Shown in pieces: positions 2,248 through 28,038 of a stretch of DNA of 64,000 nucleotides. The notes beneath the pieces were generated by a model. The model did no database searches. It was not told the DNA's origin and saw only the letters and a list, made by a program, of their open reading frames with translations. This stretch comes from Litoreibacter albidus (GTDB taxonomy: Bacteria > Pseudomonadota > Alphaproteobacteria > Rhodobacterales > Rhodobacteraceae): NCBI RefSeq assembly GCF_900107015.1, contig NZ_FNOI01000001.1, forward strand, positions 250,501 to 314,500, in the 5' to 3' direction. Within the stretch, counting starts at the first letter, position 1, and every line of letters starts with the position of its first letter. Position numbers and translations under genes: made by a program.

Positions 2248-3359
2248 CCGTTGCTTTGACGGGCGGCGTGCAAAGCCTTTGGCAGGGCTTGGGCCAACAG
2301 GTCCATGTCCTGCGGTGACCCACAGCTGATACGGATCGCACGGTTTTGTGGAGCGACGAACGGCATGCGCACGAACAGCCCTTCGGCCAATAATCCCTCC
2401 AACACCTTGCGGGCGAAATCGCCGTCCGCGCCGCAGTCCACAGCCACAAAATTGGTGGCGGACGGCAACGGCACCAGACCGTTATCGCGGGCAATCTCGG
2501 CGATCCGGTCACGCGATGCGGCGACCTTGGCACAAACCTCAGCCAGATAGGGCTGATCGTTCAGCGCGGCCAATGCGCCTGCCTGACTGATACGGCACAT
2601 GCCGAAATGGTTGCGGATTTTGTTGAAGGCCGCGATGGTCTGCGCCTCCCCCAAAGCATACCCCACACGGGCGCCAGCCATGCCGTGGCCTTTTGAGAAC
2701 GTGCGCATGCGAATGACATTCGCGTTCGTCATATCCAGTGCGGGGGCGGTGCCGTCGGGGGCAAGCTCTATGTAGGCTTCGTCCAGTATCAACAGGCAGT
2801 CGCTTGGCACCGCATCAATCAAATGCTGCACGGCGACGGCATCATGCCAGCTGCCCATGGGGTTGTCTGGGTTGGCGAAATAGATCAGCCGTGCGCCCGT
2901 CTCTAGGGCACGGGCCACCAACGCGTCTGGGTCTTCGCGGTCGTCGCGGTAAGGCACCATGTGCAGTTCGCCTCCAAAGCCCGCCACGTGGTAGTTGAAT
3001 GTTGGGTAGGCGCCAGCGGAGGTCACAACAGCGGTCCCGCCCTCCACGTAAAGCCGCACAAGATACCCCAAAAGCGCGTCGATACCTTCGCCTACAACGA
3101 TATTGTCCGGCGATACGTCGTGATGCTGCGCTAAGGCGTGCCGCAAGTCGTAGTTCTCTGGGTCGCCGTATTTCCATACGTCGGCGCTGGCGGCGGCCAT
3201 GGCGTTCAGCGCTTTGGGGGAGGGGCCGAACACGCTCTCGTTGGCACCAAGGCGGGCAGCGAAGGGCGCAGCCCTCGCGCGCTCCAACGTTTCGGGGCCC
3301 ACGAACGGGACGGAGGCAGGAAGACTGTCGGCAAGCGGGGTTAGGGGCGGTCTATTCAT
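2244..3359 (-). CDS. PLP-dependent aminotransferase, histidinol-phosphate aminotransferase-like
   Basis: 371 residues from the chosen ATG at 3359; a further in-frame start 19 codons upstream (3416) adds a non-homologous tail. Class I/II fold: substrate loop GANESVFGPSP (38-48), FANPDNPMG (161-169), DEAY (193-196), FSKGHGMAGARVGYALG with PLP lysine K223 and phosphate-binding R231. The ANES/NPDNP spacing is that of HisC-type enzymes, which convert histidinol phosphate and 2-oxoglutarate. No other his gene is adjacent, and Rhodobacteraceae often carry HisC paralogues acting on aromatic or other amino acids, so the substrate is left open. Confidence 0.85.
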   Translation of the reverse strand: MNRPPLTPLADSLPASVPFVGPETLERARAAPFAARLGANESVFGPSPKALNAMAAASADVWKYGDPENYDLRHALAQHHDVSPDNIVVGEGIDALLGYLVRLYVEGGTAVVTSAGAYPTFNYHVAGFGGELHMVPYRDDREDPDALVARALETGARLIYFANPDNPMGSWHDAVAVQHLIDAVPSDCLLILDEAYIELAPDGTAPALDMTNANVIRMRTFSKGHGMAGARVGYALGEAQTIAAFNKIRNHFGMCRISQAGALAALNDQPYLAEVCAKVAASRDRIAEIARDNGLVPLPSATNFVAVDCGADGDFARKVLEGLLAEGLFVRMPFVAPQNRAIRISCGSPQDMDLLAQALPKALHAARQSNG

Positions 3360-3440
3360 GGTGCAGACTTTGAGCGTGTTTTGCTCAAGCTTGCAAGTGC
3401 GCGCATGCACTCCCACCTATAAACTACGAAAGGAGCCCCC

Positions 3441-3605
3441 ATGCCCCAGTTTTCAAGACGCGGCTTCATGGCCGCAACGCTCGCAACAGGTGCCAGTCGC
3501 GCCGTGCCCATCGCTCTTCGGGCAAAGAAGCCACGCGTCGTGTTGGAGCTGGTCTACGACAAGGCGCTGGGCATGATGCGCGCGGTGGAGCGTATCGTCA
3601 GGTAA
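3441..3605 (+). CDS. 54-aa Tat-signal-like small protein
   Basis: Short frame preceded by a good Shine-Dalgarno (AGGAG, 10 bp upstream of the start). The protein opens MPQFSRRGFMAATLATGAS, an S-R-R-x-F-x twin-arginine motif followed by a modest hydrophobic segment, and ends with a basic helix (VYDKALGMMRAVERIVR). It lies divergently from the HisC-like gene and upstream of the crotonase. I recognise no function. It may be a tiny exported or membrane-edge protein; the hydrophobic part is short for a full Tat signal, so translocation is an inference. Confidence 0.55.
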   Translation: MPQFSRRGFMAATLATGASRAVPIALRAKKPRVVLELVYDKALGMMRAVERIVR

Positions 3606-3644
3606 CGCTGGCGTGGTGGCAATCTTGCGATTAGTTTGAGCATC

Positions 3645-4415
3645 ATGAGCTTAGTCACCACGCAAATCGCCGATGGCATCGCACGGGTCACCTTAAACCG
3701 CCCCGACAAAATGAATGCCATTTCCCTAGACATGCTGGACGATGTTCTTGCCGCGGCCGAGGCGTTGAAGGATGCGAGCGATATCCGCTGCGTCGTGCTT
3801 TCGGGCAGCGGGCGGGCGTTCTGTGCGGGGATTGATATCACCTCATTGTCGGGCCTTCTCGGGCAAGACATGGAGGAGGTAATTATCCGCCGGACCCATG
3901 GGACGGCGAACCGGTTTCAGGAGTTCGCCCTCGCGTGGCGCAATCTGGAGGTGCCGGTGATCGCAGCCCTGCATGGGGTGTGTTACGGGGCGGGCATGCA
4001 GCTGGCTATTGCCGCCGACATCCGCGTGGCGGCACCTGACACCAAGCTCTCGATCATGGAAATGAAGTGGGGCCTCGTGCCGGACATGGGCGGGATGACG
4101 CTCTTTCCGCAGGTGCTGCGCGACGACGTGCTTCGAAAGCTAATCTACACAGCCGAGGTCGTGCCGGCGGAGCAGGGCGTGGCACTGGGGCTTGTCACGG
4201 AACTGGCCGAGGACCCGCTCACGCGCGCGATGACGCTTGCGCAGCAAATCGCGGCCCAAAGCCCGAGTGCGATCAGCGCGGCCAAAAGGCTGATTGCCGA
4301 GGCGCAGAGTGGCACGCGCGAAAGCGTCCTAATGGCGGAATCGGTGGAGCAAGCCGCGCTGATTGGGACACCGGACCAAATGGCCGCCGTGATGCGTGGG
4401 ATGTCCAAGAAATAG
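3645..4415 (+). CDS. enoyl-CoA hydratase/isomerase (crotonase) family protein
   Basis: 256 residues, the normal length of a crotonase. The two oxyanion-hole segments are present: AFCAGID (58-64) and HGVCYGAGMQLAIAADIR (110-127). The active-site segment MEMKWGLVPDMGG (138-150) places an acidic pair eight residues apart (E139, D147), resembling dienoyl-CoA isomerases more than hydratases, which have two glutamates about 20 apart. Likely acts on acyl-CoA esters in beta-oxidation. ATG 3645 is preferred; a TTG at 3636 is in frame. A downstream inverted repeat (4538-4617) separates it from valS. Confidence 0.85.
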   Translation: MSLVTTQIADGIARVTLNRPDKMNAISLDMLDDVLAAAEALKDASDIRCVVLSGSGRAFCAGIDITSLSGLLGQDMEEVIIRRTHGTANRFQEFALAWRNLEVPVIAALHGVCYGAGMQLAIAADIRVAAPDTKLSIMEMKWGLVPDMGGMTLFPQVLRDDVLRKLIYTAEVVPAEQGVALGLVTELAEDPLTRAMTLAQQIAAQSPSAISAAKRLIAEAQSGTRESVLMAESVEQAALIGTPDQMAAVMRGMSKK

Positions 4416-16835: not shown

Positions 16836-17123
16836 ATGTCGCGCGTCTGTGAACTCACTGGCAAAGGCCCGATGGTCGGCAACAATGTCAGCCACGCTAA
16901 AAACCGTACTCGTCGTCGGTTTCTGCCGAACCTTAATGACGTGACTTTGCTGTCCGAGACCTTGGGTCGCGGCTTCAAATTCCGCATCTCTGCTGCTGCT
17001 CTGCGCACAGTGGACCACCGTGGTGGCCTCGATAGCTTTATGGCGAAGTCGAAAGATGCCGAGCTGTCCACTAAGGCACTCAAAGTCAAGAAAGACATCG
17101 CGAAAGCCCAAGCAGAAGCTTGA
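16836..17123 (+). CDS. rpmB: 50S ribosomal protein L28
   Basis: 95 residues, a basic ribosomal protein of the large subunit. The start [20 protein letters not shown] and the following [13 protein letters not shown] are the classical bacterial L28 pattern; the family is usually 77-98 residues. A Shine-Dalgarno GGAAGGAA lies 8 bp upstream. It is transcribed alone, with a promoter-like element before it and a strong intrinsic terminator after it. Confidence 0.97.
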
Positions 17124-17147
17124 ACTAGCGCGTAATCAAGTTTGAAG

Positions 17148-17183
17148 CGGCCCCGCTCTGGAAAGAGCGGGGCCGTTTTCGTT
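17148..17183 (+). terminator. intrinsic terminator of rpmB
   Basis: Perfect 12-bp GC-rich stem (CGGCCCCGCTCT / AGAGCGGGGCCG) with a GGAA loop, followed by TTTTCGTTT, 25 bp after the rpmB stop. Confidence 0.9.
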
Positions 17184-17257
17184 TGATCTGGAACAAGGTT
17201 GCGTGAGAGACGATTTGACATATTGGCTCTGTCGTCCCTGATCCGTATTGGTAGCCC

Positions 17258-17605
17258 ATGATCTTCTTGCGTCGCCTCTTTGCCATGATCCTTGTGATCA
17301 CTATGGTTGCCACGACTGGCACCATGGCAGTGATGCGGGATCGTGATGTGGGTGCGCAGGCGATGGTGATCTGCACCGGCGTTGGTTTGCATACGATTCT
17401 TGTCGACGCCAACGGTGAGCGGGTCGATCCAGCGCCGATCTGCCCCGAATGTAATGTGATGACCTTGGCTGCGGGGGCGCCCGCGCCACTGGTCATGCTG
17501 TCGGGGGGGCTTCGCCAGTTGGATCAGGTGACGCCCCTGAGGAGCCAGCCCTATGTGCGTCGCGCCAAGGGGGCGTTGAACGTGCGCGCCCCGCCTGTTG
17601 GTTGA
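17258..17605 (+). CDS. DUF2946-like small membrane protein, copper-linked
   Basis: 115 residues. An N-terminal membrane segment (FAMILVITMVATTGTMAVM) precedes a short exported part containing a single CPEC (ICPECNVMTLA, residues 62-72), a possible metal-binding pair. Length, topology and position directly before a PCu(A)C copper chaperone (about 57 bp gap between stop and start) match the DUF2946-like proteins found with copper periplasmic genes. I assign the family by resemblance, not by a decisive motif. Confidence 0.6.
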   Translation: MIFLRRLFAMILVITMVATTGTMAVMRDRDVGAQAMVICTGVGLHTILVDANGERVDPAPICPECNVMTLAAGAPAPLVMLSGGLRQLDQVTPLRSQPYVRRAKGALNVRAPPVG

Positions 17606-17661
17606 TCTGTCCGAACTCCCTCTACCACACAGACAATCATACAGACGAAAGGGCATATTAC

Positions 17662-18207
17662 ATGTCTATCAAACTCATTTCCGCGGCAGTTCTTGCAGCC
17701 ACCCTGTCTACCGCCGCCTTTGCTGGCGACATGGCCTTTAAGGTCACCGATTCTTACGCGCGCAGTGCCAGCGCCAACGCCAAAACCGGCGCGGCGTTTA
17801 TCACGCTGAAGAACATGACCGACACGGATGACCGCTTGATTGGGGTCGCGTCACCAGCGGCAAAACGTGTGGAGCTTCACACCCACATGGAGAATGATGG
17901 TGTCATGAAGATGACCCATGTGGAAGAAGGTTTCCCCGTCATGGCGGGCGAGATGATCGAGATGCAGCGCGGCGGAAAACACGTGATGATGATGGGACTG
18001 AACGGCCCGTTTGAGCAGGGCGCGACAGTTCCTGTGACCCTGACCTTCGAGAGGGCGGGCGAGATGGAGGTCATGGTGCCTGTTGATCTGGAGCGTCAGC
18101 CAAAAGAAGGTCACGGCATGAAGCATGGTAAAGGCCACGACGAAGGACATGGCGAAGGCCATGGGAACGGTCACGGCGCGAAGCACGGTTCTGCAAGCGA
18201 TAGCTGA
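17662..18207 (+). CDS. PCu(A)C-family periplasmic copper chaperone with His-rich tail
   Basis: 181 residues with a cleavable signal (MSIKLISAAVLAATLSTAAF, cut before GDMAF). The cupredoxin-like domain carries the copper-binding set H73, M84, H107 and M109 (ELHTHM, DGVMKM, KHVMM), the H-x10-M-x(21-22)-H-x-M pattern of PCu(A)C. Such proteins deliver Cu(I) to the CuA site of cytochrome oxidase. Beyond the domain is a 29-residue tail of repeating G-H-G/KH units (about residues 153-176), longer than the core needs, which could store or transfer copper. ATG 17662 fits the signal peptide; an in-frame codon 60 bp upstream does not. Confidence 0.88.
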   Translation: MSIKLISAAVLAATLSTAAFAGDMAFKVTDSYARSASANAKTGAAFITLKNMTDTDDRLIGVASPAAKRVELHTHMENDGVMKMTHVEEGFPVMAGEMIEMQRGGKHVMMMGLNGPFEQGATVPVTLTFERAGEMEVMVPVDLERQPKEGHGMKHGKGHDEGHGEGHGNGHGAKHGSASDS

Positions 18208-18235
18208 TACCAATCGAATGCGCGATTAGACGGAG

Positions 18236-18262
18236 AGGGGCGGCAGAAATGCTGCCCCTTTC
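18236..18262 (+). terminator. probable terminator after the copper chaperone gene
   Basis: GGCAG (18242-18246), an AAATG loop and CTGCC (18252-18256), with flanking GGGG/CCCC pairing and a short T-run. A bulged stem, so less certain than the others in this window. Confidence 0.5.
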
Positions 18263-18370
18263 GCAATGCAACCAAGGGGTTTCATAGTGTTTTGGCTCAC
18301 ATACGGCCTTAACCCTTGATACATGGCGATAAGTACTTCACTGTTTTGGGATAGCTGGGGAGCTACTATA

Positions 18371-18835
18371 GTGAAGAAGAGTGTATTGTTTGTCTGTTTA
18401 GGCAACATATGCCGTTCGCCGTTGGCGGAGGGCATTTTCAAAGCCAAGTCGAAAGACGCAGGGCTTGATGTGATCGTTGACAGCGCTGCCACAGGCGGTT
18501 GGCACATCGGGGAGCCACCCGATGCGCGGGCTATCGTGGCAGCACGCCTCAAGGGCTACTCTATCGAAGGGCAGGTCGCCCGCGGCGTGAGCGTCGTAGA
18601 CTTCGAAACCTCCGACTTGATCGTGGCCATGGACGAGACGAATCGCCAGGATATTGAGGCATTGCGTCCGCCGGGCTCTACTACGCCGGTCGTGTTGCTG
18701 TCGTCTTTCGGCCCGCCAGACGGTCCGTCAGAAGTGCCTGACCCGTATTACACGGGCAAGTTCGATCCGGTGATTTCCATGGTTGAGGGCTGCGCAGACG
18801 CGCTGGTTTCTCAGCTTCTGACAGAGCGACAGTAG
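18371..18835 (+). CDS. low-molecular-weight protein-tyrosine phosphatase
   Basis: 154 residues from GTG 18371, chosen because GGGGAG lies 9 bp upstream and the fold starts at once (KKSVLFVCLGNICRS). The catalytic P-loop is C-LGNIC-R-S (C9 and R15 of the mature numbering), with the general-acid motif DPYY near residue 118. The enzyme hydrolyses phosphotyrosine or small phosphate esters in the cytosol. A longer reading from ATG 18323 gives 16 extra residues with no homology. Its last 25 bp overlap the end of the convergent gene at 18811. Confidence 0.92.
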   Translation: MKKSVLFVCLGNICRSPLAEGIFKAKSKDAGLDVIVDSAATGGWHIGEPPDARAIVAARLKGYSIEGQVARGVSVVDFETSDLIVAMDETNRQDIEALRPPGSTTPVVLLSSFGPPDGPSEVPDPYYTGKFDPVISMVEGCADALVSQLLTERQ

Positions 18836-19125
18836 GTCGCCGCGTTAGAGCCGAACTCCTTGTAGCGCTTCCAAAACTTCTCGTGGTTGGTGTTGTCCGA
18901 CTGGCGGATGACCTGCGCGCGGTGCGGGTCGGAGAAGAACGTCGCGGCAAGCCGCTGGTCGCCAGAGCTGAGCGTCAGGTCGGCAACTTGCTGTACGCAG
19001 TTGCACAAGGGGCGCGAGGCGGCCTTGCGGTCCGATTTCAGACAGGCCCGCTCAATAGGGCCAGCCCATGCGGCGCTGGCTGAACACCCGATCACAACGG
19101 CAATTGCGGCTAGTTTTAAACCCAT
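18811..19125 (-). CDS. secreted small protein, 'arginine transporter'-type hypothetical
   Basis: 104 residues from ATG 19125 (an in-frame ATG at 19224 is less likely because it would bury the signal peptide). The N-terminus MGLKLAAIAVVIGCSASAAW is a clear signal sequence. The mature part has six cysteines counting the terminal one in YCRSVRS, among them RPLCNCVQQVAD. Similar proteins in Rhodobacteraceae are labelled as arginine transporters, a label I cannot support from sequence; the protein is too small to be a transporter. Overlaps the phosphatase gene convergently. Confidence 0.7.
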   Translation of the reverse strand: MGLKLAAIAVVIGCSASAAWAGPIERACLKSDRKAASRPLCNCVQQVADLTLSSGDQRLAATFFSDPHRAQVIRQSDNTNHEKFWKRYKEFGSNAATYCRSVRS

Positions 19126-19244
19126 GGTCCTGCTCCAAATGGCGGCGCGATGCGGTGCGCGCTCTGTATATTTGGAGCAATATAGGGCAAACGCCGCAGA
19201 GATATCAATCTCCACGGCGATCACAATTTCGGAGTATGGAAGCT

Positions 19245-19613
19245 TTAGTTGCGCGGCAGGTTGGAGCCGATCATGACGTGGCGCGGCGCATAAGTGCCGT
19301 TCAGCGCGGGCAGGTTTTCCACGAAGATCTCGGTGACGGGGCCGTCGTCCGCAATGGACCCCGCGCCAGAATTGGTTCGCGGAAGAGCTTTGGTGTCGGC
19401 GGCGTTATATCCCGGGGAGCGCACGATCTCGCTCTCGACAAAACCCACGCCGATGTTGCTGCCCGCTGGGTTGTGCGGGCGGTAGTTGATCGGGGTGGTG
19501 TAGCTGCCGACGATGCGGGTGGCAGCGTGGTGATGCGGGTACAGAGACTGGTCGCCCGCAAAGGCCGGAGCGGCGGTGGTGAGGCAGAGGCTTACAAGTG
19601 CAAAACGGTACAT
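19245..19613 (-). CDS. exported hypothetical protein
   Basis: 122 residues starting MYRFALVSLCLTTAAPAFAG, a typical signal peptide with an A-F-A cut site. The mature domain begins DQSLYPHHHAATRIVGSY and is rich in small and polar residues; I recognise no family. RBS AAAGGAAG is 6 bp upstream. A perfect 15-bp palindrome (ACGACACAGTGTCGT, 19664-19678) lies about 50 bp upstream of the start and could be an operator. Confidence 0.65.
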   Translation of the reverse strand: MYRFALVSLCLTTAAPAFAGDQSLYPHHHAATRIVGSYTTPINYRPHNPAGSNIGVGFVESEIVRSPGYNAADTKALPRTNSGAGSIADDGPVTEIFVENLPALNGTYAPRHVMIGSNLPRN

Positions 19614-19971
19614 AATTACTTCCTTTGGAAGGGCAGCAGAACAGAGGCGTTAACCTTTCCTTAACGACACAGTGTCGTCAAGTTTTTGCCACTTTTCAGG
19701 AGGTTACGGGCTACATCTAGTGCGAGGGGTGAATAAAACCGCTATTTGAGGCATCATTGTTTCGGCTATCGCAACCGCCGCCACATTCTTGCCACGAATT
19801 TGCCGCGCCTGATTCTGTGGATACCACGCGTGATGCATCGTATGGCGCGGCGGCAACCAGCGGCGGGCCGGATACCCCTTTGATACCTGCGCCACCCTAT
19901 TGCGCGATTTGCCTGCCCAACCGCGACGCGACCCATTGACCAACCCTTATTTCCAACGCATATCCCTACGC
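19614..19971. other. intergenic region upstream of lepA and the exported protein
   Basis: 358 bp without a supported gene. It holds the 15-bp palindrome at 19664-19678 and an AT-rich stretch near 19740 (GAATAAAAC). An open frame at 19757-19939 and a 5' extension of the lepA frame to 19900 look like chance reading and are not called. Confidence 0.6.
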
Positions 19972-21771
19972 ATGACCGAGCTTTCAAAAATCCGCAACTT
20001 CTCCATCGTGGCCCACATCGACCACGGTAAATCGACCCTTGCTGATCGCCTCATCCAAGAGACGAACACTGTTGCTGCGCGCGACATGAAAGAGCAGATG
20101 CTCGACAGCATGGATATCGAGCGTGAACGGGGCATCACCATCAAGGCGCAGACCGTGCGGATTGACTACATCGCCGACGACGGGGAGGCCTATGTCCTTA
20201 ACCTGATCGACACGCCGGGCCACGTGGATTTCGCCTATGAGGTGTCGCGGTCCATGCGCGCGGTGGAGGGGTCTTTGCTGGTCGTCGATTCCAGTCAGGG
20301 CGTCGAGGCGCAAACCTTGGCCAACGTCTACCACGCGATTGACGCCGATCATGAGATCGTGCCGGTCCTGAACAAGATCGACCTGCCCGCCGCCGACTGT
20401 GACCGCGTGGCAGAGCAGATCGAGGACGTCATCGGCATCGACGCGTCCGGCGCTATTCAGGTCTCCGCGAAAACGGGGCAGGGGATTCACGAGACGCTGG
20501 AAGCCATTGTCACCCGTTTGCCCGCGCCGTCTGGCACGCGCGATGCACCGCTTAAGGCGATGCTGGTGGACAGCTGGTACGACAGCTACCTCGGTGTGAT
20601 CGTGCTGGTACGCATCATTGATGGCGTGTTGAAGAAGGGGGAGCGGATCAAGATGCTCTCCAACGGCTCCACCCACCACGTTGACCGGATCGGTGTGTTC
20701 AAACCCGCCCTGACCGAAATCGCGGAGCTGGGGCCGGGGGAGCTTGGCTTCCTGACCGCCTCCATCAAACAGGTGCGCGACACCCGTGTGGGCGACACGA
20801 TTACCCACGAGAAGAAGGGCACGACCGACGCGCTGCCTGGCTTCAAGCCGTCCCAGCCCGTGGTCTTCTGTGGCCTGTTCCCCGTGGACAGCTCCCAGTT
20901 CGAGGACCTGCGCGACGCCATCGAGAAGCTGGCACTGAATGACGCGAGCTTTAGCTACGAGATGGAAACCTCCGCCGCGCTGGGCTTCGGCTTTCGTTGC
21001 GGGTTCTTGGGTCTGCTGCACCTAGAGGTGATCCGCGACCGGATCGAGCGCGAATATGACATTGACCTGATCACCACCGCGCCCTCGGTGATTTACCACG
21101 TCTATATGCGCGACGGTGAGAAGATCGACCTGCACAACCCCGCCGACATGCCCGACCTGACCCATGTGGACCATCTGGAGGAGCCGCGCATCAAGGCGAC
21201 GATCCTCGTGCCGGACGAGTATCTGGGCGACGTGCTGAAGCTGTGCCAAGACCGCCGTGGCATCCAAGAGGATCTGACCTACGCGGGCACCCGCGCGATG
21301 GTGGTGTATGATTTGCCTCTCAATGAAGTTGTGTTCGACTTCTATGATCGCCTGAAATCGGTAACAAAGGGTTACGCGTCCTTCGATTACCAGATGACCG
21401 GTTACCGCGAGGACCGTCTGGTCAAGATGCAGATCCTTGTGAACGACGAGCCGGTGGACGCGCTGTCCATCATGGTTCACCACGACCGTGCGGAGGCCCG
21501 TGGCCGCGCCATGGTCGAAAAACTCAAAGACCTGATCCCGCGCCACATGTTCAAAATCCCGATCCAAGCCGCCATCGGTGGCCGCATCATCGCCCGCGAA
21601 ACCCTCGCTGCTATGCGCAAAGACGTGACCGCCAAATGCTACGGCGGCGACGCATCGCGTAAGAAGAAGCTGTTGGAGAAGCAGAAGGCCGGTAAGAAAA
21701 AGATGCGCCAGTTCGGTAAAGTTGATATCCCTCAGGAAGCGTTCATTTCGGCGCTGAAAATGGATAATTGA
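19972..21771 (+). CDS. lepA: elongation factor 4
   Basis: 599 residues, the same length as the E. coli protein when read from ATG 19972. Translational GTPase that back-translocates or remodels stalled ribosomes. G1 is AHIDHGKST (14-22), the switch region [14 protein letters not shown] follows, G3 is DTPGHVDF, G4 is NKID. The C-terminal [19 protein letters not shown] and [21 protein letters not shown] region is diagnostic of LepA rather than EF-G. The last codons overlap the start of the DUF3800 gene. Confidence 0.97.
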
Positions 21772-22589
21772 GAACAAGTTTGCCCAAAACTTACATTTTA
21801 TGTTTAGACGATTCAGGTGCTCGGCACCCCACACGTAAGGTGGGACGACAAGCTGAGCACGGTTATGATTGGTTTGCTCTCGGAGGTATCCTATTTGACG
21901 AGGATAAAGAGAAAATGATTCGTCAAAACCATAGAGTGTTTTGCGAAAAGTGGTCACTTGAGGTTCCGCTGCATTCTTCTGAGATAAGGGCGCGGGCAAG
22001 TAATTTTGCGTTCATTAGAACACTCGAGACGAGAGAACAGTCGCGCTTCTATGAGGAGCTGTACTGTTTGATGCGTGACATTCCGGTTCACGGTATGGCG
22101 TGCGTTATTGATAGGCCTGGCTACAACGCAAGGTACTTGAAAAAGTACGATGAAGATAAGCGCTGGTTGTTGTGTAAGTCCGCTTTCAACATATGCGTTG
22201 AACGCGCTGCGAAGATAGCATCGACTAACGATGCAAAGCTGAGAGTTTACATCGAACGGGCTGACAAAAAGACAGACAGGTTGATAAAGGAATACTTCAT
22301 CGAAATGCGGGAGCAAGGGATGCCCTTTGCTAAAGAAACGTCCAAAAAATACGCACCATCATCTACAGTTGATCTAGCGCACTCGCTATACGAATTCAGA
22401 ACGAAAGCGAAGTCATCTCCGTTGATGCAACTCGCTGATCTTTATTTATGGCCATTATGCATGGGAGGCTACAATTCAGAATGCCGACCTTACAAAAGGC
22501 TAAGCGAAGATGAGAAGCTAGTTGATAACATGATATCAGAAGCCGAAAAAAACAGCCTTGGTATTAAGTACTATTGCTTCGACAAATAA
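21768..22589 (+). CDS. DUF3800 domain-containing protein
   Basis: 273 residues. The N-terminus CLDDSG (near residues 12-17) matches the acidic DxSG opening of DUF3800, a predicted RNase H-like fold, and [10 protein letters not shown] near the C-terminus matches the closing helix with its conserved aspartate. Base composition is visibly AT-richer than lepA, suggesting recent acquisition. Start is uncertain: TTG 21768 overlaps the lepA stop by TTGA; TTG 21780 is the next candidate. A terminator follows at 22592, then two long palindromes. A nuclease or defence role is often guessed for the family; nothing here proves it. Confidence 0.8.
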
Positions 22590-22618
22590 AAAACCCAGCT
22601 CGTAAGCTGGGTTCTTTC
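22590..22618 (+). terminator. terminator of the DUF3800 gene
   Basis: AACCCAGCT (22592-22600), loop CGTA, AGCTGGGTT (22605-22613), then CTTTC, directly after the stop codon. Perfect 9-bp stem. Confidence 0.8.
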
Positions 22619-22709
22619 AGCCATCATAACGATGACCTCGTAGGCTAGGCCTATCTCTCACATAGGCTCAGAAACGTTAAGAGGCAATTAAAAATTATAG
22701 ATTGACAAG

Positions 22710-22759
22710 GTCAACGCGGCTCCTTATCTGCCTTTAGGCAGATAAGGAGCCGCGTTGAC
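22710..22759. repeat. 50-bp near-perfect palindrome P1
   Basis: Left arm 22710-22733 starts GTCAACGCGGCTCC and ends ATCTGCCT; right arm 22736-22759 starts AGGCAGAT and ends CGCGTTGAC. All 24 pairs match, with a 2-nt centre (TT). TTGACA (22702-22707) ends 2 bp before the arm, and TATCTG inside the left arm is 17 bp from it. No T-run follows, so it is not a plain terminator. A MITE-like remnant, an operator or a recombination or nuclease target are all possible. Confidence 0.85.
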
Positions 22760-22812
22760 GAATTGTTTCAGATCGTCGATAGGGCAAAATCACTGGAAAA
22801 TCTCTTGACGTA

Positions 22813-22861
22813 TGAAGCCCAGTCGATGTAGTTCCAGGGGAACTACATCGACTGGGCTTCA
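22813..22861. repeat. 49-bp near-perfect palindrome P2
   Basis: Left arm 22813-22835 (begins TGAAGCCCAGTCGATG) and right arm 22839-22861 (ends ATCGACTGGGCTTCA) pair at all 23 positions around an AGG loop. TTGACG (22805-22810) ends 2 bp before the arm, the same spacing as for P1. Arm sequences are unrelated to P1. The 53 bp between P1 and P2 hold no gene. Beyond P2, up to 22930, nothing is recognised. Confidence 0.85.
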
Positions 22862-22930
22862 GTAAAGGTGCCGTATCTGAGGATAGCAGTCTGGTGGATT
22901 GGCGGAAAACGCTAGATTACCACCCCTCAA

Positions 22931-23053
22931 TCACAACGCCCGTTTCACCGCCCGCGCCGCTCCGCTGACGTCTTGGCCGATGCCGTCAACCGTCTCGCAG
23001 CCTGCCAGCGCAAGCATCGCCGCAAGGCAAATCATCGTTAGTCGCGTGGTCAT
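22931..23053 (-). CDS. entericidin-like small lipoprotein
   Basis: 40 residues: MTTRLTMICLAAMLALAGCE is a lipoprotein signal with lipobox LAGC (C19), followed by the short mature tail TVDGIGQDVSGAARAVKRAL. The pattern GCxTVxGxGxDV matches the EcnA/EcnB entericidin family, small membrane lipoproteins of an antidote/toxin pair in enterobacteria; single copies are common in alphaproteobacteria and their role is unclear. No partner gene is visible nearby. Confidence 0.75.
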   Translation of the reverse strand: MTTRLTMICLAAMLALAGCETVDGIGQDVSGAARAVKRAL

Positions 23054-23228
23054 CTGTGAGGCCCTCTTGGTTCATGGTTTCACGCATTTTAGCGCGCCTC
23101 GCGGGGGAGTTCCAGCGGCGGAACGGGGCTTGGCGCGAACCCGCCGCCGCACATGACCCAGATCAATGTTTCACCGACCCGCGCGCGCTATAGACGCAGG
23201 CGTAACCACGACCAAGGAGTCCCTGATC

Positions 23229-23417
23229 ATGTTCCGTCTTGCCGCAATCCTCTTCTCGATGACCTCCACCACCTTGGCGGGCATTGCCGTGATCGCGGTG
23301 TTAACCATGGGCTATGACACATGGATGCCGATTGTGGTCGCGGCGGCCGTGGGCTTTGTGCTGTCCATCCCCGCCACATGGTGGCTGGCCAAACAGATCA
23401 CCGCGAAAATCGTCTAG
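23229..23417 (+). CDS. small two-TM membrane protein
   Basis: 62 residues from ATG 23229, with AGGAG about 11 bp upstream. Two hydrophobic segments (LAGIAVIAVLTMG and PIVVAAAVGFVLSIPATWW) joined by a short polar loop and ending KQITAKIV. Similar Rhodobacteraceae proteins carry a misleading 'CTP synthetase' label; nothing here supports catalysis. Its stop codon overlaps the end of the convergent hydrolase gene. Confidence 0.65.
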   Translation: MFRLAAILFSMTSTTLAGIAVIAVLTMGYDTWMPIVVAAAVGFVLSIPATWWLAKQITAKIV

Positions 23418-24166
23418 CTGTCCAAGAACACCCGCACCGCCGCCTCGAATTCGCGGGGCTTCTCCGCATGGAGCCAATGCCCCGCACCGGGTATCTTGGC
23501 GTATTTCGCGTTGGGGAACAGCGGTTTGATCAGGCTCCGGTGCTCGGGCTTCACGTAGTCGGAGTTCGCGCCGGAGAGGAACAACACCGCCCCGTCGAAT
23601 TGCCCTTGGACCTGTGGAAACCCGATGGTTTTCTCCATCTCGGCAGCAAGAACATCAAGGTTCAGACGCCACGCCTTGCCCGCAATATCGACGGATTGGG
23701 CGATGAACTCAGGCACGCCAGCCTCTAGGCCCGTTAACTGCTCCAGCACGTCGGAGCGGCGCTCCACGTGCGTGAAATCCACACGGCGCATCGCCTCAAT
23801 CGGGCCCATTTGCGTGTGGCTGTATCCCACTGGCGCGATATCCGCGACGATCAGCTTATGCACCAAGTCAGGGCGCGTCGCCGCCAGCACCATCGCCGTT
23901 TTGCCCCCCATGGAGTGGCCAAGCACATCCATCGGCCCGCCAATTTCCTCGATCACTTGCGCCAGATCACCGGCAAGGGCCGGATAGCTGTGGTCATCAT
24001 CCCAAAAGCTGTGCGCATGGTTGCGCATGTCGACGGCGATGACCTGCCCGCGATCCGACAGGCGCTTGGCGATAACGCCCCAATTGCGCGCAGAGCCGAA
24101 CAGCCCGTGGGCGATCAACAGAGGCTTGGCGGCACCAGCCGTGCCAAATGTTGTATAGTTAAGCAT
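23414..24166 (-). CDS. alpha/beta-fold hydrolase (YbfF-like esterase)
   Basis: 250 residues from ATG 24166. The fold is clear: oxyanion loop LLIAHGLFGSARNW (16-29), nucleophile elbow VLGHSMGGK (81-89, S85), acid in FLSGANSDYV and the catalytic histidine in PGAGHWLHAEKP. The GLFGSARNWG and DMRNHAHS segments resemble YbfF acyl-ester hydrolases. Substrate unknown. A longer start at 24301 would add an unlikely basic tail. No operon partner on this strand; the small membrane protein gene converges on its 3' end. Confidence 0.85.
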   Translation of the reverse strand: MLNYTTFGTAGAAKPLLIAHGLFGSARNWGVIAKRLSDRGQVIAVDMRNHAHSFWDDDHSYPALAGDLAQVIEEIGGPMDVLGHSMGGKTAMVLAATRPDLVHKLIVADIAPVGYSHTQMGPIEAMRRVDFTHVERRSDVLEQLTGLEAGVPEFIAQSVDIAGKAWRLNLDVLAAEMEKTIGFPQVQGQFDGAVLFLSGANSDYVKPEHRSLIKPLFPNAKYAKIPGAGHWLHAEKPREFEAAVRVFLDS

Positions 24167-24219
24167 AGACCGAGCCGTAGCAGCTTCCCGTCGCCTGCGA
24201 AAGTGGGCTAAGAGAGCGC

Positions 24220-24591
24220 ATGGAAAAAGTCGTCGTAGAACAATTGGCAGAGCGCATTTCGGCTTTGCTGCGCGAGAAACTGGGCGCAAGAGGCAGCTCA
24301 CTAGAGGCGCGAGTACAGTGGGCAGGGCGCGGCTTGCCCCGCCGTGTGCGGCAGGCTGCGATGGAACTGGTCAACGCCGAACGCATGGCACAAGACCCGA
24401 AGATGCGCCTACGGCTCGACCCGCAACAGGTCAGCGCCGCCTATAACACTTGCCTGACCCACCTTGATGCAATTGATGCCAAAGCGATGAAGGCAAAGCG
24501 GATCTTCGGGTTTCTGGCGACGCTGATCATACAGATCGTGCTGATCGGCGCGGCCGCGGTCGCCCTGCTGCGCTGGCGCGGATACCTTTAG
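24220..24591 (+). CDS. membrane-anchored hypothetical protein
   Basis: 123 residues. A soluble, charged N-terminal half with helices (LAERISALLREKLGARG, RQAAMELVNAERMAQDP) ends in a single C-terminal membrane segment (FLATLIIQIVLIGAAAVALL) and a short basic tail. The topology suggests a tail-anchored inner-membrane protein. I recognise no family. It is divergent from the hydrolase with 53 bp between starts. Confidence 0.65.
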   Translation: MEKVVVEQLAERISALLREKLGARGSSLEARVQWAGRGLPRRVRQAAMELVNAERMAQDPKMRLRLDPQQVSAAYNTCLTHLDAIDAKAMKAKRIFGFLATLIIQIVLIGAAAVALLRWRGYL

Positions 24592-24694
24592 GGCGCAAGC
24601 TTGATAAAGGTGATGTCGCGCCCGTGTCGGCTTTGGGATAGACGGGTCGGGCGCTGACTTCCACGCTGAACCGGTACAACAGGTGAGGCAAATC

Positions 24695-25651
24695 ATGCGT
24701 ATCGGGTTTATCGGATTGGGAAATGTCGGCGGCAAGCTGTCTGGTTCATTACTGCGAAACGGCTACGACCTCACGGTTCACGACCTCAACGCAGAGCTGG
24801 TCGCAGGTGCTGTGGCCAAGGGGGCTACGGCGGGCACGACGCCGCGTGCCATGATGGCCGACTGCGACATCGTCATCACATGCCTGCCGCACCCAAAGAT
24901 TTCTGCCGCAGTGGTGGAAGGCGACGACGGCTTACTGCAAGCCATGACAACCGGAAAAATATGGCTGGAGATGTCGACCACCGACGAGGCGGAGGTCAAG
25001 CGGCTTGGGGCAAAGGTGCAGGCCGCTGGCGGGGCGGCAGTCGATTGCCCCGTTTCGGGCGGTTGTCACCGCGCGGATACGGGCAACATCTCCATTTTTG
25101 CGGGCTGCGACCGCGCAACCTTCGAGCGGGTGTTGTCGGTGTTAACGACAATGGGTCGGCGGGTTCTGCACACGGGTGCTTTGGGCTCGGCCTCCGTCCT
25201 GAAGGTGGTGACCAACTATCTGGCGACCGCGAACCTAATTTCCTGCAGCGAGGCGTTAACCGTGGCCAAGGGGGCGGGCATGGATTTGGGCGTGGCTTAC
25301 GAGGCCATCAAAATGTCGTCCGGCACCTCATTCGTTCATGAGACCGAAAGTCAGGTCATCTTAAACGGATCGCGTGACATCTCTTTCACGATGGACTTGG
25401 TGCTGAAAGACATCGGCCTGTTTCAGGAGGTGGCGGATCGGGCTGGCGTGCCGTTGGAAATGAACCCGCTGATGGTCCAGATTTTCAAGGACGGCATCGA
25501 GCGCTATGGCGCGCGAGAACTGTCGCCCAATATTATCCGGCGGTTGGAGGATGCAACAGGGCTTCGCGTCACGGCGCCCGGTTTCCCAGCGGAGATGCGC
25601 GACGATGAGCCGGAGGCCGTGGGCCACGAGGTCGTACCAAATCGGGGGTGA
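24695..25651 (+). CDS. beta-hydroxyacid dehydrogenase, 3-hydroxyisobutyrate dehydrogenase family
   Basis: 318 residues from ATG 24695, supported by GGTGAGG upstream. N-terminal Rossmann motif MRIGFIGLGNVGGKLSGSLL (GxGxxG), substrate-binding DCPVSGG, the CDRATFERV region and the catalytic lysine in SVLKVVTNYLATANL. Family members oxidise 3-hydroxyisobutyrate, tartronate semialdehyde or related hydroxyacids with NAD(P)+. Pathway cannot be fixed without neighbours. It overlaps the following reading frame but the next gene is best started at 25711. Confidence 0.87.
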   Translation: MRIGFIGLGNVGGKLSGSLLRNGYDLTVHDLNAELVAGAVAKGATAGTTPRAMMADCDIVITCLPHPKISAAVVEGDDGLLQAMTTGKIWLEMSTTDEAEVKRLGAKVQAAGGAAVDCPVSGGCHRADTGNISIFAGCDRATFERVLSVLTTMGRRVLHTGALGSASVLKVVTNYLATANLISCSEALTVAKGAGMDLGVAYEAIKMSSGTSFVHETESQVILNGSRDISFTMDLVLKDIGLFQEVADRAGVPLEMNPLMVQIFKDGIERYGARELSPNIIRRLEDATGLRVTAPGFPAEMRDDEPEAVGHEVVPNRG

Positions 25652-25710
25652 GGGCTAGCGCCGATCTGCCTGCCGCGCTAAGCGGGGTGGGCAGTAAGGA
25701 AAGTAGTTTG

Positions 25711-26232
25711 ATGACACGTAACGACAATGATCAAAGCTCTGAAGTGATCGTAGGGCTTATTCCGTCGGCCCCGCGCCGCCTGTTCGGCACTGTCGTGCTG
25801 TATGCGTTGGGCGGGTTGCTTCTTTATCTGGTTGTGACCCAACCGCCCGAAGGGCTGCATCTGGTGTTCTTGCTGATCATTCTAGGCGCCGCGTCGATCT
25901 ATGGCGGGTACCGGATGTGGGATGTCACAGGTCACATGATAGAACTGACCGAGCAGGAGTTGCGCCTGTCCGACGGTCGCGTGATTTTCCGGATGGAAGA
26001 CGTGCACAAGGTTGACCGCAGCTTCTTTGCGTTCAAGCCGTCAAACGGCTTCTTGGTCACACTCAAAGTTGCGTACCCAAAGGCTTGGGCACCTGGCCTG
26101 TGGTGGCGTCTTGGCAAGCGCGTGGGTGTTGGCGGGCTGACGTCAGGCGCGGAGGGCAAGATGATGGCCGATACATTGGCCGCAATGATCGCCGCGCGCG
26201 ACGGGTTGGTCGACCTCGATAGCCTGAGGTAA
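25711..26232 (+). CDS. membrane hypothetical protein
   Basis: 173 residues from ATG 25711. Two close membrane segments (RRLFGTVVLYALGGLLLYLVV and LHLVFLLIILGAASIYGGYRM) are followed by a soluble domain with a PH-like beta pattern (MIELTEQELRLSDGRVI, MEDVHKVDRSFFAFKPSNGF). Possibly a membrane-anchored PH-like domain, but I recognise no named family. It lies just after the dehydrogenase; a bidirectional terminator separates it from gdh. Confidence 0.65.
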   Translation: MTRNDNDQSSEVIVGLIPSAPRRLFGTVVLYALGGLLLYLVVTQPPEGLHLVFLLIILGAASIYGGYRMWDVTGHMIELTEQELRLSDGRVIFRMEDVHKVDRSFFAFKPSNGFLVTLKVAYPKAWAPGLWWRLGKRVGVGGLTSGAEGKMMADTLAAMIAARDGLVDLDSLR

Positions 26233-26246
26233 CGGGCCGTCGTGGG

Positions 26247-26280
26247 AAGGCGGGGCGCAGCGGCGCCCCACCTTGGTTTA
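26247..26280. terminator. bidirectional terminator between membrane protein gene and gdh
   Basis: AAGG-C-GGGGCGC (26247-26258) pairs with GCGCCCC-A-CCTT (26263-26274) around AGCG; one C/A mismatch. TT follows on the plus strand and the arm is AA-led on the minus strand. It lies between convergent stops. Confidence 0.7.
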
Positions 26281-26281
26281 T

Positions 26282-27712
26282 CTACAGCCCCTTTGCACGG
26301 TAGCTGCTAGAGATGCGGTCGATCGCCACAAGGTAGGCCGCGATCCGCAGGTCATGGACGTCGTCACGCGCGTGCCAAACGGCCCGCATCGCTTGATAGG
26401 CGGTACGCATCGTGTCTTCCAAGCCAGAGCGGACGAGTTCAATCTCCCCCGCACCGCGCAAGAACCGCGCCTTGAAGTCGGGGCTCAACTCCCAGCCCAG
26501 TTCTTTGTCAGCGGACAGCCGCTCTAGCTCGTTGATGAGCAGGAGATGCTGCGCCTCTTCTTGGCGTTTGCCCATGCGGCCAAAGCGGATGTGGCTCAGG
26601 TTTTTGACCCACTCGAAGTAGGATACCGTAACACCGCCCGCGTTGGCGTAGAGATCCGGGATAATCACGCAGCCTTTTTTACGAAGGATCTCGTCCGCAC
26701 CGGCAGTAATTGGTCCGTTCGCGGCCTCGATGATCAAGGGGGCCTTCACACGCTCCGCATTGCTCAGGTTGATCACGCCTTCCAAGGCGGCTGGGATCAT
26801 GATGTCGCAGTCAGCTTCCAATACTTTGGGGCCATCCTCGACAAACTCACCCTCAGGGCAGCCTTTGACGCCGCCATTCTCACCAATCCACGCGTGAACG
26901 GCCTCAATGTTGAGGCCCGCGTCATTCGTCAGCGCGCCGTCACGCTCGATGATGCCCACGATCTTCGCGCCATCTTCCTCAGACAGGAACTTGGCGGCGT
27001 GGTAGCCCACGTTCCCAAGGCCTTGGACGATGATCCGCTTGCCGCTAAGTGTGCCCTCCAGACCCGCGATTGCGATGTCTTCGGGGTAACGAAAAAACTC
27101 TTGAAGCGCGTATTGAACGCCGCGCCCAGTAGCCTCCACACGGCCAGCAATGCCGCCCGCGTTCAACGGTTTACCCGTCACACAGGCCCGCGCGTTAATG
27201 TCGGTCGTGTTCATCCGGGCGTATTGATCGGCAATCCAAGCCATCTCACGCTCGCCGGTGCCCATGTCTGGGGCGGGCACGTTTTGACTGGGGTGGATCA
27301 AGTCCCGCTTGGCCAGCTCGTAGGCAAAGCGTCGGGTGATCTGTTCCAGCTCATGTTCGTCCCATTCGCGCGGGTCAATGCACAAACCACCTTTCGAGCC
27401 GCCAAACGGTGTTTCCACCAACGCGCATTTGAACGTCATCAGCGCGGCAAGGGCTTCGACCTCGTCCTGATGCACGTTCGGGGCAAACCTGATGCCGCCT
27501 TTAACCGGTTCCATATGTTCGGAATGTACAGCGCGGTAGCCGGTGAACGTGTGGATTTGCCCGCGCAGCCGCACGCCGAAGCGAACTGTGTAGGTCGCGT
27601 TGCAAACGCGGATTTTGTTTTCCAACCCCGGTGGCAGGTCCATCAGGCTGACCGCCCGATTGAACATTAACTCTACAGATTCTCTGAAAGACGGTTCGTT
27701 ATGTGTGCTCAT
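26282..27712 (-). CDS. Glu/Leu/Phe/Val dehydrogenase (glutamate dehydrogenase)
   Basis: 476 residues. Oxidises glutamate to 2-oxoglutarate and ammonia (or the reverse) with NAD(P)+. The dehydrogenase core is clear: PVKGGIRFAPNV, the active-site stretch CALVETPFGGSKGGL, PAPDMGTGEREM, the coenzyme-binding IVQGLGNVGYHAAKFL (GxGxxG), and PAALEGVINLSNAERV. Substrate choice between glutamate and branched-chain amino acids cannot be settled by eye; NPxNxG-like segments fit GDH. Transcribed away from the Tad operon across a 326-bp gap. Confidence 0.92.
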   Translation of the reverse strand: MSTHNEPSFRESVELMFNRAVSLMDLPPGLENKIRVCNATYTVRFGVRLRGQIHTFTGYRAVHSEHMEPVKGGIRFAPNVHQDEVEALAALMTFKCALVETPFGGSKGGLCIDPREWDEHELEQITRRFAYELAKRDLIHPSQNVPAPDMGTGEREMAWIADQYARMNTTDINARACVTGKPLNAGGIAGRVEATGRGVQYALQEFFRYPEDIAIAGLEGTLSGKRIIVQGLGNVGYHAAKFLSEEDGAKIVGIIERDGALTNDAGLNIEAVHAWIGENGGVKGCPEGEFVEDGPKVLEADCDIMIPAALEGVINLSNAERVKAPLIIEAANGPITAGADEILRKKGCVIIPDLYANAGGVTVSYFEWVKNLSHIRFGRMGKRQEEAQHLLLINELERLSADKELGWELSPDFKARFLRGAGEIELVRSGLEDTMRTAYQAMRAVWHARDDVHDLRIAAYLVAIDRISSSYRAKGL

Positions 27713-28038
27713 GGGATACCTTCTGGCATGTCGGACCTTAACAAATCGCTTATTTTTTAAGCAGCTTGCAAACTCAGCCTAGAACGAGATTTGCGCGAAC
27801 GTAAGTCATAATTGGAGGGTTAACGGTTCTATTACTGATTCCGTCCATAACGCTGGCTATTGACCATGACGCAGGAACAATACCTGAGAAACCTTCCAAA
27901 AGTTGCTGAAAACACTTATTAAATGCCGCATTCCCGCCCTATTTTGCCAAATTATGGCCATGATGCTGGGGCCTATTGGCGATTGGACGAATTGCGTCCG
28001 GTGACATCGGCGCGTGCGTGCGTCAGGGAAGGTCAGTC
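27713..28038. other. intergenic region between gdh and the Tad operon
   Basis: 326 bp holding the divergent promoters of gdh and tadG. It contains a run CTTATTTTTTAAG near 27750 and a small dyad GGACG/CGTCC (27985-27999). I see no gene. Confidence 0.55.

Follow-up and report, generated by a model that had tools for sequence, protein, structure and literature searches.

A Putatively Exchanged Cassette of Litoreibacter albidus with a DUF3800 Gene, a Candidate Convergent Small RNA, and Two Perfect Palindromes

Two unrelated, perfect palindromes of about 50 bp stand side by side downstream of a DUF3800 gene in Litoreibacter albidus. Do they belong to whatever the gene does, or is its partner to be sought elsewhere in the same DNA? 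Here, we report an analysis of the window, a 64,000-nucleotide stretch (RefSeq assembly GCF_900107015.1, contig NZ_FNOI01000001.1, positions 250,501 to 314,500), in which a small RNA beside the gene is proposed as that partner.

Palindrome P1 (22710-22759) has arms of 24 bp, all 24 paired, around a 2-nt loop, and palindrome P2 (22813-22861) has 23 of 23 arm bp paired around a 3-nt loop; predicted RNA folds with flanks reach −50 and −44 kcal/mol, respectively. Their starts are 103 bp apart, both lie within 152 bp, and each begins exactly 2 bp after a TTGAC box (TTGACA, 22702-22707, before P1; TTGACG, 22805-22810, before P2), with TATCTG 17 bp from the TTGACA hexamer of P1. Arm lengths, TTGAC offsets, spacing, and TATCTG position are all as the preliminary description of this DNA had given them. 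At the left edge of P1 lies the dyad TTGACaagGTCAA (22702..22714), which one base breaks in Litoreibacter halocynthiae. Elsewhere in the window, the longest perfect arms are 13 bp (loops up to 12). A control of 40 stretches of 20 kb (800 kb; 20 stretches from the same genome and one from each of 20 relatives, 400 kb per set) held perfect arms of at least 20 bp (loop of at most 12) once, in a relative and not in the same genome; at that rate, a genome of this size should hold about 0.002 pairs spaced within about 110 bp. Because arms of at least 20 bp were seen once in the 800-kb control, the pair is not a chance product; two such palindromes in 152 bp are far beyond chance.

The palindromes form the tail of a cassette of about 1.16 kb (21772..22930) that holds the DUF3800 gene, the small RNA, P1, and P2. 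Its left border is the stop codon (21771) of the native lepA gene (19900..21771, with a putative start; + strand; Pfam LepA_C, 166 bits; GTP_EFTU, 177 bits), and its native right flank is a 40-amino-acid lipoprotein-like gene (22931..23053, − strand; stop, 22931-22933) without a Pfam match, which, judged by eye, we take to be entericidin-like. L. halocynthiae carries the same DUF3800 gene, RNA region, P1, and P2 at the same place, with the pairing of both palindromes kept except for the outermost base pair of P1. The two cassettes show 10 mismatches in 1,159 bp (∼99% identity) while the flanks are far more diverged (56 mismatches in the 572 bp preceding the cassette, about 10%; 123 mismatches in 384 aligned positions of 23006-23400, about 30%), and the 75 bp just after the cassette hold 2 differences. 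This contrast points to the recent exchange, between Litoreibacter species, of a block that includes the start of the right flank. It also upholds the acquired character ascribed earlier to the DUF3800 gene, as does G+C content, which is lowest of the window in the region of this gene.

A search for the cassette matched lepA or the right flank only in each of the other 19 genus genomes. Of the 21 genus genomes, just the 2 with the DUF3800 gene hold arms of P1 and P2 (at most 3 mismatches), at one place each; the preliminary description had allowed for the same palindromes occurring without the gene, and no such case was found among these genomes. A dispersed palindromic repeat (REP, MITE) was rejected, as the arms occupy one place per carrier genome with up to 3 mismatches allowed. 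The DNA directly behind lepA (21772-22930 in the window, and loci L051 to L067) is variable cargo across the genus. In 17 sister-species stretches, the DNA following the end of lepA differs from the cassette, and palindromes are not a feature of the site, with no arms over 14 bp in these 17 stretches downstream of lepA. Proteins encoded directly behind lepA were matched by PADLOC in three of the five sister-species cases tried (SoFic, 337 bits; NsnA, 146 bits; PDC-S31, 113 bits), and the other two had no match; for the SoFic, NsnA, and PDC-S31 genomes, in which the contig ends or the right flank finds no match nearby, the statement covers the DNA directly behind lepA. Taken jointly with the rest, the best explanation is that the spot behind lepA is used for anti-phage-type cargo, as judged from these gene contents.

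The DUF3800 gene (21780..22589, + strand) has a TTG start by alignment to relatives, within an open reading frame that opens at 21768. Its product scores 30.1 bits with the PF12686 (DUF3800) profile (curated cutoff, 21). Six-frame genome searches at an E value of ≤1e−6 do not list the gene, which is therefore a divergent member of the family; its relatives, at 36 to 55% identity, lie on rhizobial and other plasmids. The protein had no match in PADLOC and no convincing relative by sequence in the PDB (best E value, 1.2). An AlphaFold model from three sequences was weak (pLDDT, 61; pTM, 0.65); its best PDB fold match was RNase HII 1eke (E value, 0.02; probability, 0.97), with no match at an E value of ≤0.001, and the next, a Piwi protein, came far behind (E value, 0.46; probability, 0.41). 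In an alignment of 11 DUF3800 sequences, D14 and D15 are nearly invariant, and E163, D170, and D224 are invariant. Passages of two reports (PMC10910872, PMC12669027) assign an RNase H fold to DUF3800, with which the fold match of the weak model agrees, and the cassette's protein is probably an RNase H-like nuclease. The same passages link DUF3800 to putative noncoding RNAs and to Cas12a2 (V-A2) and type VI-F loci, where accessory proteins of this family name are reported with the RNase H fold and an RNA context (PMC10910872, PMC12669027). Unlike those loci, the window has a stand-alone DUF3800 gene with what appears to be its own RNA, and inspection by eye of the open reading frames around it (17000-28000) brought up neither a CRISPR array nor a cas gene.

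Between the DUF3800 gene and P1, on the opposite strand, lies a candidate small-RNA gene of ∼70 nt (about 22588-22658, − strand). Read along that strand, it has stem A with a 3-nt loop (AGGC-cta-GCCT), a GRGRU linker, stem B (GTCATC-...-GATGGC), a short linker, and an intrinsic terminator; the two-stem core spans 22615..22654 and the terminator hairpin 22588..22617 (both − strand), and the T-run of the latter, on the minus strand, reaches and abuts the DUF3800 stop codon. The preliminary description had assigned this terminator to the DUF3800 gene; the hairpin exists, but the long T-run is on the opposite strand and chiefly ends the convergent small RNA. A weak candidate promoter, TTGCCT-17 bp-TATGTG (22659..22687, − strand), was read from the sequence and is placed as in relatives; the best site of a promoter scan is a different one and equally weak.

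Relatives of the gene were collected with tblastn, which gave 37 plasmid records and none among phage records; 16 of the 37 were examined, together with viral contig L070 and genome locus L069, and the small-RNA element stood just past the gene end in 14 of these 18. A covariance model built from nine relatives, with the window left out, found the window RNA (22615-22654, − strand) at 29.3 bits (E value, 1.6e−4), the only match in 64 kb at an E value of ≤1. Over 20 sources it found 16 including the window (nine of the 16 in training), that is, 15 of 19 other clade loci, from Rhizobium to a cyanobacterium, and in all 16 the RNA is convergent and lies just past the end of the DUF3800 gene. It missed L044, L173, L177, and L178, and a further match at L045 (16.7 bits) is at chance level. 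Seven of the 16 matches lie outside the training set. Since six of the seven closely copy a training member or the window, the window alone amounts to an independent test. Near the gene of L173 (Sinorhizobium meliloti pRRI128_4), a reverse transcriptase gene was seen at 3066-3804.

The RNA is absent from 124 other DUF3800 loci (54 + 70; best scores, 16.6 and 16.2 bits), and the best score in the 800-kb control was 20.1 bits. Of 385 genomes in a class-wide scan, 12 had matches at a per-genome E value of ≤0.05. In two of them, G000 and G350, a DUF3800 relative adjoins the match, and these are also the only 2 of the 385 with the DUF3800 clade at an E value of ≤1e−15; the other matches, up to 32.7 bits and so above the 29.3 bits of the window, are without a DUF3800 neighbor (best tblastn E value, 0.024). 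Position beside DUF3800, not score alone, makes the case for the small RNA.

Of five covariation measures taken on the model alignment, two were not exceptional. Covariation in the model alignment was 0.41 versus 0.20 in shuffles, and 76% of cells were paired versus 65% (0 of 500 shuffles as high for both); neither the count of double-change pairs nor that of further pair types stood out (equaled or exceeded in 50 and 56 of 500 shuffles, respectively), and slid controls of covariation scored lower. By a rule set by hand, all 8 distinct versions of stem A pair over their full length, and three pair types occur at the outer position of the stem; stem A is offset by one column between subtypes, and the automatic model alignment leaves it paired in no more than 60% of cells. 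Applied to the first alignment, RNAalifold returned stem B only, and in the minimum-energy fold of 99 nt of the window (z score, −4.8) stem B and the terminator form, with stem A replaced by another pairing. The terminator is present in 16 of 16 small-RNA rows versus 7% of random stretches. The best promoter-like site has the end of its −10 element 3 to 5 nt ahead of the core in 10 of 16 rows (scores, 8 to 13); of these ten well-placed sites, six have a score of just 8.0 (mean of the controls, 6.6, with 5% of them at 8.5 or above), the window site is weaker still, and the best-scoring promoter-like site of four Rhizobium and two Litoreibacter copies is elsewhere. Two other approaches were discarded: a variable guide segment in the RNA, as four close Rhizobium copies differ by few bases without a variable block, and a home-made descriptor of the small RNA, which was too loose (5 matches in 800 kb) and whose terminator rule the window failed.

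The DUF3800 RNAs already named reportedly go back to a source study by Weinberg in 2017, and Rfam numbers its families of this name from DUF3800-I upward. Rfam gave no DUF3800 family at an E value of ≤1 in 21000-24000, where the only match over the window RNA was a subthreshold rnk_pseudo (26.9 bits; gathering score, 55), and none at an E value of ≤0.5 at the RNA of ten plasmid relatives. At gathering cutoffs, 5 of 57 loci (54 order-level loci plus L069, L070, and L008) matched DUF3800-VI (one), -VII (three), or -IX (one). The DUF3800-VII (RF02967) and -IX (RF02968) small RNAs are downstream of DUF3800 and convergent to it, like the window RNA (L094, L096, L121, and L091), and the DUF3800-VI match, unlike it, is upstream of the gene on the same strand; in its stems and linker, the window RNA differs from -VII and -IX, and it belongs to another DUF3800 clade. 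Among the genomes searched, 45 of 244 at order level and 59 of 385 at class level encode DUF3800 proteins, and in 16 of 54 order-level genes a terminator-like hairpin reads against the stop codon (7% in random stretches). The -VII and -IX layout and these hairpins suggest that part of the DUF3800 family habitually has a convergent small RNA. With reservations, the window element appears to be a structured small-RNA gene adjacent to DUF3800, as are Rfam's DUF3800-associated small RNAs; by sequence comparison, one DUF3800 clade appears to have its own small-RNA gene, the window RNA being new and its kind already known.

Several further features of DUF3800 loci were recorded. Seven loci of the same order (L100, L105, L108, L110, L111, L113, and L117) have, by eye, a distinct structured-looking element of the GGAGAACCCCTTGGGTTCTT type after the stop codon, without an Rfam match at gathering score. 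Close relatives of the gene adjoin caspase-family genes in L043 (Rhizobium etli p42a) and L050, and L043 also has a TIR-domain gene and an E2-fold gene. A DUF3800-plus-RNA block of up to about 1.4 kb is common to plasmids with partly different flanks (L041, L042, L043, and L050), and in L043 it is split by an IS21-type insertion.

The palindromes do not follow the gene in this way. The check set beforehand, a search for palindromes near DUF3800 homologues, gave 1 in 142 other loci versus 1 in 40 control stretches, and the idea of the palindromes as a conserved partner of DUF3800 was given up, since relatives of the gene are without them. The single case in these 142 loci (589 kb) with perfect arms of at least 20 bp, in L076 (1298-1341; 44 bp, 21-bp arms), lies upstream of the DUF3800 gene and is unlike P1 or P2 in sequence; by eye, it adjoins a terminator-like hairpin. 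Our literature search found no paper joining "DUF3800" and "palindrome." Of the 10 changes that separate the cassettes of the two Litoreibacter species, 3 lie within P1 and P2: two affect loops and one the outermost base of P1. The loop changes affect 2 of 5 loop bases versus 10 of 1,159 overall (chance about 0.001; post hoc, computed with 11 changes), and the arms have 1 change in 94 bases, the background rate. The excess in the loops hints at exposed hairpin tips, with no sign of special protection in the arms.

We therefore favor, with somewhat better than even confidence, an exchanged cassette with a DUF3800 and small-RNA module, outside which the palindromes would be fold-back products and the TTGAC boxes a coincidence. 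Its working part would be the DUF3800 protein and the ∼70-nt small RNA, transcribed against the gene and ending where the gene has its stop codon; the RNA would most likely be bound by the protein or control it, and the cassette may serve in defense. P1 and P2 would lie beyond the promoter region of the small RNA, outside the conserved module, and their likeliest origin is fold-back (template switching) in the noncoding tail of the cassette; any role of theirs would be limited to forming strong hairpins when transcripts read through between the convergent genes. That origin, with at most a role as transcript hairpins, is favored because loop changes are in excess and arms change at an ordinary rate. 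Template switching is a general idea for the origin of palindromes. Reports on fold-back or quasipalindrome correction describe short-loop, near-perfect inverted repeats produced by template switching (PMC7202029, PMC8604942); P1 and P2 resemble these in being short-loop inverted repeats and differ in that two unrelated ones stand side by side and are kept in two species. Against the favored explanation, two palindromes in 152 bp are hard to get other than by selection or a local generating process, and no non-palindromic precursor of the palindrome DNA turned up. The palindromes stay unexplained; perhaps they are fold-back products or transcript hairpins.

The strongest rival, which we hold possible although clearly less probable, is that P1 and P2 are selected RNA hairpins insulating convergent transcripts, that of the DUF3800 gene from those of the small RNA and the lipoprotein gene, by stopping read-through or shielding against it. 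Their place between convergent units, their very stable predicted RNA folds, and the terminator-like character of P1 on the + strand speak for it; yet that single terminator-like pattern is weak, with 0.8 expected in shuffles and none for P2, arms are substituted at a rate no lower than the rest, and relatives of the DUF3800 gene do without palindromes.

It is improbable that the palindromes serve the DUF3800 protein or its RNA as a DNA or RNA target, an operator, or a decoy; the preliminary description had proposed an operator, a target, or the template of a small RNA. They share the cassette and are retained by both carriers, and a structure-specific nuclease of RNase H fold could plausibly act on hairpins or cruciforms; against this, they were not found beside relatives of the gene, the outer dyad of P1 is broken in L. 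halocynthiae, and the small RNA has no unusual complementarity to them (duplex energies were ordinary, being equaled or bettered by 176 to 259 of 300 random stretches). The associated hunch of a small RNA was right in that there is a candidate small RNA in the same cassette; the palindromes are neither that RNA nor unusually paired with it. CRISPR-like spacer or guide arms were rejected after no match was found in viral contigs, in plasmid and phage records, or elsewhere in the genus genomes; the exact cores of P1 and P2 had no match in viral contigs, and 22590-22925 had none in plasmid and phage records at an E value of ≤1. The miRNA-type Rfam matches on P2 (best, 32.9 bits; gathering score, 63) were set down as generic hairpin matches.

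Very unlikely, in our estimate, is that a DUF3800-small-RNA complex reads or cuts P1 and P2 as swappable recognition hairpins specific to each cassette; if true, the arms at this place would differ from cassette to cassette, in a new kind of RNA-assisted defense unit. Least credible of all is the reading of the TTGAC boxes as −35 elements with P1 and P2 as small-RNA genes or leader-peptide units (17-codon open reading frames, 22755-22808 and 22812-22865), for which the same hexamer offset at both palindromes and an AAGGAG preceding the TTG at 22755 can be cited, and against which stand a σ70 scan of 22500-23000 without a promoter-like site (none after either TTGAC), 118 TTGAC in the window versus 114 expected, which is no enrichment, and a roughly estimated, not computed, coincidence of ∼1 to 2% for a shared 5-mer at one offset. 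The same scan gives no support to a promoter (TTGACA plus TATCTG) overlapped by the left arm of P1, and the TTGAC boxes beside P1 and P2 are most likely a coincidence.

The palindromes are a true oddity and can be set aside in testing the DUF3800-RNA module. DUF3800 is a name for a family of unknown function that earlier work has tied to several small RNAs and to CRISPR loci. The cassette adds a DUF3800 clade that appears to have its own structured small RNA, at a location where sister species keep defense-type genes. DUF3800 and its small RNA would make a unit of two parts, compact enough for cloning and for direct phage challenge.
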